Part shown: positions 31,097 to 55,591 of the stretch, one piece after another | Layout: the number at the start of each line of letters is the position of its first letter | Position numbering within the stretch: the first letter of the stretch is position 1 | From: Pedobacter suwonensis | GTDB lineage: Bacteria; Bacteroidota; Bacteroidia; Sphingobacteriales; Sphingobacteriaceae | Direction: 5' to 3' | DNA: 64,000 bases | NCBI RefSeq assembly: GCF_900111825.1 | Contig: NZ_FOJM01000003.1 | Location: 124,001-188,000 of the forward strand | Position numbers and translations under genes: made by a program | The notes under the pieces: generated by a model | What the model saw: the letters and a program-made list of their open reading frames with translations, nothing else | Databases searched by the model: none | Told to the model about the DNA's origin: nothing

Positions 31097-31844
31097 GGGA
31101 TTTGAAATTTTAAATCGTCTTCGTTTGTAACGGGGATGAATGAGAAACGCGCTTCCGGCGCAAACCTTTTTTCTATTGGTCAGGATTTGAATCCTGGCCA
31201 ACTAGATATCTTATCTGCATTAAAAATGCAGCACTCACCGATCCTCGTTTTAAAAGAGGACCACATACAAGTATGAAATTCAATCTGTAATTAAATGTTG
31301 TCGGGATTTAAATTATAAAAATCGTCCTTGTTTGTAACGAGGACCATACAAGTATAAAATTCGATCTGTAATTATATGCTGGCAGGGATTTGAAATGGTA
31401 AAATCGCCCTCGTTTGTAACGAGGATGAATAAGAAACGCGCTTCCAACGCAAAATTTTTCTATTGATCATGATTTGAAATCCTAACAAACTAGATTTCTT
31501 ATCCGCATTAAAAATGCAGCACTCAACGATCCTCGTTTTAAACGAGGACCATACAAGTCTGAAATTCAGTCTGTAATTAAATGTTGTCGGGATTTAAATT
31601 ATAAAAATCGCCCTTGTTTGTAACGAGGACCATACAAGTATAAAATTCGATCTGTAATTATATGCTGGCAGGATTTGAAATGGTAAAATCGTCCTCGTTT
31701 ATAACGAGGATGAATGAGAAACGCGCTTCCAGCGCAAACTTTTTCTATTGATCAGGATTTGAAATCCTAACAAACCAGATTTCTTATCCGCATTAAAAAT
31801 GCAGCACTCAACGATCCTCGTTTTAAACGAGGACCATACAAGTA
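31097..31844. repeat. Tandem array of 287-bp REP/BIME-like units (2.6 copies)
   Basis: Units start at 31097, 31385 and 31671 with (G)GGATTTGAAAT and are about 287 bp; the last stops at 31844. Each full unit holds three CCTCGTTTnnAACGAGG hairpins plus AGGATTTGAAATCCT, GCGCTTCCAGCGC and GCATTAAAAATGC hairpins. The layout resembles REP clusters mobilised by RAYT (REP-associated Y1 transposases), but no transposase is in the window. There are no coding frames of note and no CRISPR-like spacers. Confidence 0.75.
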
Positions 31845-31979: not shown

Positions 31980-33962
31980 ATGAAACGTCTACTGCTCTCG
32001 CTATGCTTTTTTATTTTTATCACCATTTATTCCAAAGCGCAGGGTCTTCACAGCATTAAAGGCCGAACAATTGACACCGCATCTACAGCGCTTTTGTCAG
32101 GAGCATCAATAGCCATTTTAAATGCAAAAGATTCTACTTTGGTAAAATTTACCCGGGCAGCAGAGAATGGCACATTCGAACTTACCGGAATTAAAAACGG
32201 AAAATTTATTTTACTGGTTTCCTATCCGAAGTATGCCGATTTTGTAGACCATTTCACACTCGATTCTACCACCCATGTAAAAGATTTTGGTAACATTAAC
32301 CTTACGGGAATGGCGAAAATACTTGCTGATGTAATTATAAAGGGAGAAAAAGCAGCCATTAAAATTAAGGGCGACACTACAGAATTCAATGCTTCAAGCT
32401 ATAATATCCAGCCGAATGATAAGGTAGAAGATTTACTAAAAAAGCTGCCCGGTATACAGGTAGATAAAGATGGAAAGATAACCGCACAGGGTAAAACCGT
32501 ACCGAAAGTATTGGTTGATGGCGAAGAGTTTTTTGGCGATGATCCAACACTGGTCACTAAAAACTTACGGGCGGATATGGTAGATAAGGTACAACTCTAC
32601 GAAAAATCAAGCGACCAGGCGGCATTTACCGGGGTTGATGACGGGCAGAAAACACAGACAATCAATATTAAACTAAAAGAAGATAAAAAAAGCGGTTATT
32701 TCGGAAAAGTTGATGCGGGTTACGGTACGCATGATTTTTATAAGGGCCAGGTATTGTTCAATCGCTTTAAAGCAAAACAGAAGTTTTCTGTTTATGGCAC
32801 AGCTGGCAATAATGGTACAACGGGACTAAGCTGGCAGGACAACAACAAACTGGGTGCAGGAAACGATAATATGCAAATGGGTGATGATGGAAGTATCTGG
32901 TTTAGCTATGGTGGCGGAGATGAACTAGAAAGTGGTAATTATTATGGAGAGGGTATACCAAGGGCAATAACCGGGGGTGCACATTATGATAATAAATGGA
33001 ACAATGATAAGGAAACGATTAATACCAATTATAAACTGGGTGCTTTAGGGATTAAAACCACTAAAAATACCATAAGCCAAAATAATTTACCAGATGGGAT
33101 CATCAATACCAATACCAACGAAACTTCTGACCGGAATGTATTTAGGCAAAAACTGGATGCCACTTATACCGTGAAGTTGGATACTACAAGTAATTTAAAG
33201 GTATCCGTTGATGGGATGCTTAAAAACAGCGACAATACCTCTAATTCAAAAAGTGAGGGTTTAAGAGGCGACAACTCTAAGTTAAATAGTAATGACCAGA
33301 ATAACAGCAATGATGGTAAAGAGCAAAATTTTAACATCTCTGCACTTTATACCAAGAAGCTTAAAAAACCGGGCCGTAATTATTCGGTTAATATCAGTCA
33401 AAAGGTTAGCCAGATCACCAGTGAAGGTTTTTTATATTCGGATGTAAAATATTTTGACGAGGCTGGTGTAAAAAAGGGCGGTGCAGTAACCGATCAGTTT
33501 AAAACGAACACCACCCGTAATGCTGTCCTTAGTACCAATTTAACCTATAACGAGCCACTGAGCAAGTCGCTAGCTTTAGTTTTGAATTATGGATTTGGCC
33601 TTAATGACAGCCGTTCTGACCGCAAATCCTTTAATCAATCGACACCAGGAAATTATAATGTATTGGATAAAGAGTTTAGTAACGATTTTAAAGCCACACA
33701 ATATATCAATCAGGGTGGAGCAGTTTTTAATTATAAAACCACCAAAACAACCATTAGTTTAGGAAGTAAGTTAAGTGCTGTAAATTTCGATCAGCTGGAG
33801 CAGCTTTCCGGCCAGCGTTATAAAAGGAGTTTTGTTAACTGGTTGCCACAAGCCAGCTATCAGTATAAATTCTCTGCACAAAAATCTTTCCGCATCGGCT
33901 ATAACGGAAACACCAACCAACCAACCAACGGTAGACCAGTTGCAGCCTGTAAAAGTAAATGA
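31980..33962 (+). pseudogene. Outer-membrane beta-barrel protein (OMP_b-brl_3 type), N-terminal part, frameshifted
   Basis: This frame encodes 660 residues: a signal peptide (KRLLLSLCFFIFITIYSKAQ), a carboxypeptidase-regulatory-like beta domain (HSIKGRTIDTASTALLSGASI), a TonB-plug-like region (KVEDLLKKLPGIQVDKDGKI, VLVDGEEFFGDDP) and the first part of a barrel. It ends early in a short false tail just past a CCAA tract of four units at 33913-33928. The barrel continues in another frame (next entry). With three CCAA units instead of four, one frame of 936 codons would run to 34794 and would read NTNQPTVDQLQPV at the joint, the usual family sequence. This could be phase variation, a real mutation or an assembly error. 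Confidence 0.85.
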
Positions 33963-34794
33963 TAACCCACTGTATCAACCTTTAGGCAATCCTAACCTGG
34001 CCCCATCATTTAACAGCCGCTTTAATGCAAGTTATAATTCTTATAAAGTTTTAAGCCAACAATCAATATACATAAGCGGCGGTTTCGGGTTTGTAAATAA
34101 AGCCATTGTTAGCAATACGCAAACTGATAGCACTGGAAAAACAATTGCCCAGTCAGTTAATCTCTACGGAAAAACACCCATCAATTACAATATCTACAGC
34201 AGCATCAACAGAAAGCTGAAATTTTTATTTGATTCCGAGATAGGCTTAAGTTTAAACGCAGGTGGTAGTACCAGTTACAGTTATGTAAAAAGTCAGTTCA
34301 GCGATGAGGTAGAATTAAACCAGATAGTGAACACCAATTTTAGTCCTTCATTAAATATTAACCGATACAAAGATAAAAGTGAAATTTATTTAAGTTTTGG
34401 CCCAAGCTATAATGCACAGGTTGCTTCGTTACAAAAAGAACGGTCTAATAAAGGATGGGGCTTACAGGGTTGGGGAGGCATGAGCTTTACTTTACCAAAG
34501 AAAATCAAACTCCAGGCCGATGGCGAATATACCTATACCCCAAAATCGCCGGCATTTAACACTAGTTTTGAGCAAATCATCATTAATGCTTCGATTACAA
34601 AATCCTTCTTCAAAAAGGAAGATTTGAAATTCACCATCCGTGGAAATGACTTATTCAACCAAAACCGTGGATTTAGACGGTATGCCTATTCGAACATGAT
34701 TACACAAACCAATTACAATAATATCAGCCGATATTTTATGTTCTCTTTAGTTTGGGATTTTAATAAAATGGGTGGAGGAACACCTCAAAAATAA
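33832..34794 (+). pseudogene. Outer-membrane beta-barrel protein, C-terminal part (continuation after frameshift)
   Basis: The genuine sequence in this frame begins at about 33929 (VDQLQPVKVNDNPLYQPLGN), directly after the CCAA tract. It gives the second half of the barrel, with alternating strands such as LQADGEYTYTPKSPAFN, and the terminal YFMFSLVWDFNKMGGG, an aromatic barrel end. The start at 33832 is only the first ATG of the open frame and overlaps the N-terminal part. A GLPGLI-family gene follows 51 bp later, a common partner of these barrels, possibly handling a secreted peptide or metal; the ligand is unknown. Confidence 0.85.
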
Positions 34795-34845: not shown

Positions 34846-35619
34846 ATGAAACTAAAACACGCTATACTCACGCTAATCTGCACGATAAATTATGCAATGG
34901 CGCAAAATGCCAGATTTGTACACCAGGGTATTATTGAGTTTGAAAAGAAAATAAACATATATGCATTGCTAAAGGATCAGGCAAAACGTTACCCGGATAA
35001 TTTTTGGAGTGCCCAGGCCCTGGAACAGTACCAAAAAAATAACCCGCAGTTTAAAACTTTAAAAAGTGAGCTTATTTTTAAAAACGACCTGACGCTGTTT
35101 AATCCAATGGCTGATGAAAGCACTAATAACAGTTGGGCTAACAATTTCGCTTCTGCTAAACAGAACAATATTATATTAACAAATTTAAAGTCAGGTACGG
35201 GCATCAATCAAAAATCAGTTTACGAAGAAACCTACCTCGTTAAAGATTCTATCCGCAAGATTAACTGGAAAATAACAGACGAATTCAGAACCATTGCTGG
35301 TTACGATTGTCGTAGGGCAAACGCCCTGATAATGGATTCAATCTATGTGGTCGCTTTTTATGCAGAAAGCATTCCGATATCAGGAGGACCGGAAACCTTT
35401 AGCGGTTTGCCGGGCATGATATTAGGTGTGGCATTGCCGCGTGAACATATTACCTGGTTCGCCACCGGAGTAAAGGATGTAGAAATAGCTGACGACAAGC
35501 TTAAGGCACCCACTAAAGGAAAGCCTGTTAGTAAAAAACAGCTGAGCGATATTTTAAAAGGCGCATTAAAAGACTGGGGCAATTATGCAAGCGACATTTT
35601 AAAAGCCGCAGATATGTAA
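34846..35619 (+). CDS. GLPGLI-family exported protein
   Basis: A 257-residue protein with a signal peptide (KLKHAILTLICTINYAMAQ). The family motif occurs as ETFSGLPGMILGVALPREH near residue 190; CRRANALI within AGYDCRRANALIMDSIYVV is also typical. GLPGLI (Porph_ging, PF09697) proteins are exported proteins of Bacteroidota with unknown function, usually next to an outer-membrane beta-barrel gene, exactly as here. The pair is likely one transcription unit, so the upstream frameshift could also reduce its expression by polarity. Confidence 0.92.
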   Translation: MKLKHAILTLICTINYAMAQNARFVHQGIIEFEKKINIYALLKDQAKRYPDNFWSAQALEQYQKNNPQFKTLKSELIFKNDLTLFNPMADESTNNSWANNFASAKQNNIILTNLKSGTGINQKSVYEETYLVKDSIRKINWKITDEFRTIAGYDCRRANALIMDSIYVVAFYAESIPISGGPETFSGLPGMILGVALPREHITWFATGVKDVEIADDKLKAPTKGKPVSKKQLSDILKGALKDWGNYASDILKAADM

Positions 35620-54190: not shown

Positions 54191-55591
54191 TTAAAATTTA
54201 AAGTAATTTTTTGCGTTAAAATACGAAATATCCTGCACAATCTTGCCCACCCATTCCAAATCATTAGGCAATTCGCCATTCTCCATATCTTCTCCAAACA
54301 GGTTACAAACAATCCTCCTGAAATATTCGTGACGGGGAAAGGAAAGGAAACTGCGCGAATCGGTAAGCATTCCTACCAGGCGGCTTAAAAGCCCCATGTT
54401 TGATAAGGCATTTAACTGTTTGATCATCCCATCTTTTTGGTCTAAAAACCACCATGCTGAACCAAACTGCACTTTACCGGCTACAGAACCATCGTTAAAG
54501 TTACCAATCATGGTGGCAATCAACTCATTATCAGCCGGGTTAAGGTTATAGATAATGGTTTTAGCCAGTTTATCCTGGTTATCCAGGCGATTTAGAAATT
54601 TCGATAGCATACGGGCCTGGCTAAAATCGCCGATTGAGTCCCAACCGGTATCAGGTCCCAATTGTCTTAACATACGGGCATTGTTGTTACGCAGAGCACC
54701 AAGGTGATATTGTTGTACCCAGCCCTTTTCATGATCCCATTCTGCAAAATAAACCAGCATAGCCGATTTGAATTTCAGGTTTTCCTGATAGGAAATAGTT
54801 TGTTTACTGCGGATTTTATCAAAGATTGATGCAATTTCAGCTTCGGTATAGTCTTCAGCATAAATCTGCTCTAAACCATGATCGGAAACCGAGCAGCCGT
54901 TTGCTGCAAAGTAATCATGGCGGCCTTTTAAAGCATCAATATAATCCTGTAAACTGCTAATGCTTTTATCGGCAACCGTTTCCAGTTTGTCGATATATTC
55001 ATTTAAGCCTTCAATATCATCACTGTTCATGGCCTTATCCGGACGGAAAGCCGGTAACATTTTAAGGTTAGCGCCTTCTCTTGCCAGTTGTTGATGAAAG
55101 TTCAGGCTATCTAAAGGATCGTCGGTAGTACAAACGACCTCTACATTCATTTTGGCTAACAAACCACGTACTGAATATTCAGGCGTTTGCAGTTTAGCAG
55201 CGCATTCATCATAAATTTTCCGGGCCGTTTTGCCCGAAAGCAGGTCGTTTATACCAAAATAACGTTGAAGTTCCAAATGTGTCCAGTGGTATAACGGATT
55301 GCGTAAGGTATAAGGAACGGTTTCGGCCCATTTTTCAAATTTTTCGTAATCAGATCCTACACCAGTAATGTATTTTTCATCCACTCCATTAGCACGCATG
55401 GCCCTCCATTTGTAATGATCGCCTGCAAGCCAAACCTGGCTGATGTTGGCAAATTGCGTATTATTGGCAATCTGCTCCGGTATCAGGTGGTTATGGTAAT
55501 CGATAATGGGTAGTGATTTTGCAAAATGGTGATAAAGCTTTTCAGCAGTTTTGCTTTGCAAAAGAAAATTTTCGTCTAAAAAAGGTTTCAT
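54191..55591 (-). CDS. uxaC: Glucuronate/galacturonate isomerase
   Basis: A 466-residue uronate isomerase, normal length. MKPFLDENFLLQSKTAEKLYHHFAKSLPIIDYHNHLIPEQIA contains the metal-binding His pair (DYHNHL); CTTDDPLDSL and the C-terminal SFPRHEYFRRI follow the family. It converts D-galacturonate to D-tagaturonate (and glucuronate to fructuronate) as the first step after import. It is followed by kdgK after 114 bp and preceded by uxaA after a 334-bp repeat-filled gap, so it may have its own promoter within the locus. Confidence 0.95.
   Translation of the reverse strand: MKPFLDENFLLQSKTAEKLYHHFAKSLPIIDYHNHLIPEQIANNTQFANISQVWLAGDHYKWRAMRANGVDEKYITGVGSDYEKFEKWAETVPYTLRNPLYHWTHLELQRYFGINDLLSGKTARKIYDECAAKLQTPEYSVRGLLAKMNVEVVCTTDDPLDSLNFHQQLAREGANLKMLPAFRPDKAMNSDDIEGLNEYIDKLETVADKSISSLQDYIDALKGRHDYFAANGCSVSDHGLEQIYAEDYTEAEIASIFDKIRSKQTISYQENLKFKSAMLVYFAEWDHEKGWVQQYHLGALRNNNARMLRQLGPDTGWDSIGDFSQARMLSKFLNRLDNQDKLAKTIIYNLNPADNELIATMIGNFNDGSVAGKVQFGSAWWFLDQKDGMIKQLNALSNMGLLSRLVGMLTDSRSFLSFPRHEYFRRIVCNLFGEDMENGELPNDLEWVGKIVQDISYFNAKNYFKF

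Follow-up and report, generated by a model that had tools for sequence, protein, structure and literature searches.

An outer-membrane beta-barrel gene of the soil bacterium Pedobacter suwonensis is broken by a run of CCAA units, and the break is probably a real, young and recent slippage mutation from three units to four, which could revert but would do so rarely. The two parts of the gene lie in different reading frames of the window, by which we mean the whole stretch of 64,000 nucleotides that was analysed and whose coordinates are used below. The main import of this result as it stands is for annotation: what reads as two gene fragments is a single gene that broke recently.

The CCAA tract and the two reading frames

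The sequence CCAACCAACCAACCAA, four CCAA units, is located at 33913-33928, as a previous sequence-only reading of this DNA had reported, except that the perfect run comes to 4.5 units rather than four. The features of the locus are the following.

31980-33962, + strand: 5' part of the barrel gene, ATG at 31980, a 660-aa frame with a short out-of-frame tail at its end
33912-33929, + strand: perfect period-4 run of 18 bp, (CCAA)4 plus two bases (4.5 units), site of the frame switch
33931-34794, + strand: 3' part of the barrel gene, read in the second frame, open and conserved, 287 codons plus stop
33960-33962, + strand: stop codon reached by the upstream frame past the tract
34846-35619, + strand: GLPGLI-family gene (NCBIfam TIGR01200, E=2.4e-43), 51 bp downstream of the barrel gene

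The list of open reading frames showed that the downstream frame reads open across the tract through 34794 with no further stops, in agreement with the earlier claim that two frames of one barrel protein meet exactly at the tract. The stretch from 31980 to 34794 contains 2815 bases; minus four, these make 937 codons including the stop, or 936 residues, which is the frame that had been proposed for the removal of one unit. The repeat is of a non-triplet unit, is located inside the barrel ORF and changes its frame, as do the repeats of simple sequence repeat (SSR) contingency loci.

Both parts matched the Pfam family OMP_b-brl_3 (PF14905), with scores of 54.3 and 69.1 bits (curated cut-off 27), and we therefore take them as the two halves of one gene. 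The 5' part has a signal-peptide-like N-terminus (by inspection), a carboxypeptidase-regulatory-like domain (CarboxypepD_reg) and the start of the barrel, at positions 2-189 of the 408 of the OMP_b-brl_3 profile, while the best stretch of the 3' part covers profile positions 272-408 of 408. A structure model of an intact 936-residue orthologue, built from ten orthologues, was unusable (mean pLDDT 28.8), so the break was placed within the barrel by the Pfam profile positions alone. A sequence search of the PDB with the barrel protein gave zero matches.

A cell with four units would yield at most a 660-residue product without the last ~287 residues, the end of the barrel included. A working barrel protein is not expected from the four-unit gene, which points to loss of function, and the broken gene may also cut expression of the GLPGLI gene by polarity. 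Restart of translation past the break was considered and rejected: there are few in-frame start codons after the tract, and the resulting fragments would be without the N-terminal signal peptide.

Orthologues of the barrel gene

Syntenic orthologues were compared from 11 Pedobacter genomes (L085-L095), one genome per species. All 11 are intact and each is exactly 936 aa, the same length as that obtained above by arithmetic. The order of the genes (aldehyde dehydrogenase, barrel gene, then GLPGLI, Crp-like and AhpD-like genes) is kept in 11 of 11. No out-of-frame barrel orthologue was found among those examined, so that the comparison with close relatives, proposed earlier as a check, did not reveal a shared fixed frameshift. 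Ten remoter members of the family with a recognisable motif, eight from other genomes of the genus and two from the genome of the window, are also open across the motif.

The nearest orthologue, that of the uncultured Pedobacter MAG S3C1012_SP226 (G130), shares 95% DNA identity with the gene of the window, and its sequence at the tract site is identical except for the presence of three perfect units instead of four. The amino acid identity to G130 is about 96% for the 5' part and 97% for the 3' part, and the genes neighbouring the barrel gene match those of G130 essentially over their full length. Three units were found in G130 alone; the other 10 of the 11 orthologues have no perfect repeat at this site, where G113 has ACCAATCAACCTAC and the others diverge further. 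The tract is neither conserved nor recurrent in several lengths and states among the orthologues, as that of a contingency locus would be.

The intact length in every relative is also what would be seen if the true sequence had three units and an intact gene, the fourth unit having been introduced by an assembly or sequencing error. The assembly is a good one (5.8 Mb, 40 contigs, 99.96% complete, 0.09% contamination) and, as noted, the neighbouring genes find essentially full-length counterparts in G130. Moreover, a clean duplication of a 4-bp unit is atypical of base-calling errors, and a run of 18 bp can be spanned by ordinary reads. We consider such an error unlikely.

The interval that separates the barrel gene from the aldehyde dehydrogenase gene before it is about 900 bp in the window vs about 410 bp in G130. 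It includes, at 31097-31844, 2.6 copies of a 285-bp repeat that bears palindromes of the form CCTCGTTTNNAACGAGGA. Palindromes of this type are REP-like: they gave 22 strand matches genome-wide, which are spread over several loci, often form clusters and include some sites counted once for each strand.

Age of the break

The dN/dS ratios against G130 were 0.052 for the upstream part and 0.049 for the downstream part. On the branch leading to the window, the downstream part accumulated 3 non-synonymous and 18 synonymous changes, for 687 and 174 sites, respectively, when non-synonymous changes would dominate in a part left untranslated for long. There is no decay after the frameshift of the kind that marks a decaying pseudogene, either in dN/dS against G130 or as an extra stop in the 3' frame. 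Downstream decay was one of the outcomes named beforehand as refuting phase variation; it was looked for and is absent, so the break must be very young or reversible, and this comparison fits a recent slip and a reversible switch alike. A gene that alternated between the two states would leave its downstream part just as free of decay.

The persistence of conservation in both halves would likewise follow from programmed recoding, with ribosomes shifting frame at the tract, so that even a gene with four units would yield the complete protein. The frameshift is absent from all relatives, and a conserved signal for recoding therefore does not exist, for which reason this explanation was rejected. 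To our knowledge, the tract is not among the recognised slippery sequences either, and we hold recoding to be extremely improbable.

Origin and rarity of the repeat

The barrel tract is the only exact (CCAA)4 match in the 5.8 Mb of the genome; (CCAA)3 was found at two further places. No tetranucleotide run of at least 14 bp was present in 395 kb sampled elsewhere in the genome (20 stretches). The chance expectation was obtained from a first-order Markov simulation of 60 Mb with the composition of the window. Tetranucleotide (period-4) runs of at least 14 bp arose about 11 times per 5.8 Mb, and those of at least 18 bp about 0.1 times, an imprecise figure that comes from one event in 60 Mb. The reversed pattern, used as a control in the CCAA search, was uninformative, being the identical repeat in another phase.

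The tract encodes a conserved TNQPT-like peptide motif. Under the codon usage of the window, the spelling ACC AAC CAA CCA ACN of TNQPT has a probability of about 0.02 per occurrence. Given this probability and the 11 or so runs expected per genome, a 14-bp precursor is unremarkable and needs no special cause. Since runs of 18 bp are rare and those of 14 bp are ordinary in the simulation, the 18-bp run is best explained as such a precursor grown by one unit. Judged from sequence, the repeat appears to have arisen incidentally from the codons used in the lineage that the window shares with G130, and not from selection for mutability.

Other repeats of the same or similar type were seen. The window has a 15-bp pentanucleotide run, (GGAAA)3, at 54336-54350. 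In further genomes from the genus and family, intergenic (CCAA)n arrays range from 4.5 to 55 units (loci including L051, L067, L047, L052, L082, L084, L055, L059, L063 and L064). Fourteen of the 30 arrays examined have CCAA on the coding strand and precede a start codon by 2-41 bp. At three locus pairs, arrays that differ in length occupy the same position in two genomes (species). None of the 30 interrupts a conserved gene. These intergenic arrays, which may act as leader microsatellites in the tuning of translation, differ from the in-gene barrel tract of the window.

Discussion

Our results are best accounted for by a short series of events. Codon choice for the TNQPT-like motif would have given a run of three CCAA units, to which replication slippage would then have added one in the lineage of the window, and the extra unit would have put the barrel gene out of frame recently, in the present isolate. 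The lesion can revert, since a return to three units would bring the gene back into frame, presumably at the low rate expected of a short tract and not with the high frequency of phase variation.

Published rates for AGTC tracts, per division, are 1e-9 to 1e-7 for 2-4 units (proto-mutable), 1e-7 to 1e-5 for 3-12 units (mutable) and 1e-5 to 1e-2 for more than 10 units (hypermutable) (PMC4235727), although they belong to other repeats and bacteria and the classes overlap, so that four CCAA units in Pedobacter could mutate faster. Short tracts are described in the same review as chance-born precursors that inactivate genes. The barrel run has 4.5 units vs the threshold of about 10 or more tetranucleotide units for hypermutation (PMC4235727 Table 1). 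We take the recent slip from three to four units as the most likely explanation because four CCAA units fit this description of short tracts, the tract is not conserved, no orthologue examined is out of frame and similar tracts are lacking in the genome.

The sequence-only reading had proposed a contingency locus as a candidate. In a true contingency locus, the tract would be maintained and the barrel switched on and off at high frequency, for instance for escape from phages that use it as a receptor. Several observations are in line with it: the tetranucleotide unit sits inside the ORF of a surface protein, the 3' part remains under purifying selection, the hgp receptor genes of Haemophilus influenzae also carry CCAA repeats, down to 4 units in some strains (PMC2651432), and CCAA tracts are able to grow in the genus, to judge from the long arrays of its other genomes. 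However, the perfect tract is absent from 10 of the 11 orthologues and all of those examined are in frame, the genome holds no second (CCAA)4, four units are short for phase variation and not hypermutable (PMC4235727), and the long CCAA arrays examined in the genus leave conserved genes uninterrupted. A true contingency locus thus seems quite improbable, and the evidence for an evolved on/off switch is weak. A nascent one, in which a codon-derived CCAA run has just reached the length where reversible switching starts to count and is seen midway from chance repeat to phase-variable gene, perhaps under selection by phages, is distinctly unlikely. What stood of the former interpretation was the gene split by one unit, together with the fixed mutation and the assembly error that it had named as alternatives.

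If the recent slip is real, the locus is a clean example of an ordinary codon run turning into a frameshifting repeat, with the three-unit state surviving in G130 and remoter relatives keeping the motif without the perfect repeat. If the gene were switching, an environmental genus of Bacteroidota would have a surface barrel that is phase-variable through a tetranucleotide repeat. No directly relevant paper was found on repeat-based phase variation in Bacteroidota, and the portions available to us of the literature on Pedobacter and phase variation held nothing evidently about repeat switching in Pedobacter.

Among known systems, phase-variable surface proteins of Bacteroides (PMC4747536) resemble the contingency reading in being Bacteroidota surface proteins with on/off states; their switching occurs by DNA inversion, whereas the barrel locus is a candidate for repeat slippage. 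The hgp haemoglobin/haptoglobin-binding genes of H. influenzae are similar to the barrel gene in that they encode outer-membrane proteins and have CCAA within the ORF, so that a change by one unit shifts the frame. Their tracts are usually long (4-39 units in the tabulated strains) and vary among strains (PMC2651432), while the barrel tract has 3 or 4 units and is not conserved in the genus. The proto-mutable and mutable short SSRs (PMC4235727) are like the barrel tract in their few units and in their chance origin, which composition and codon usage explain. Such tracts can also knock out genes and give rise to longer ones, although their rates were given for units other than CCAA.
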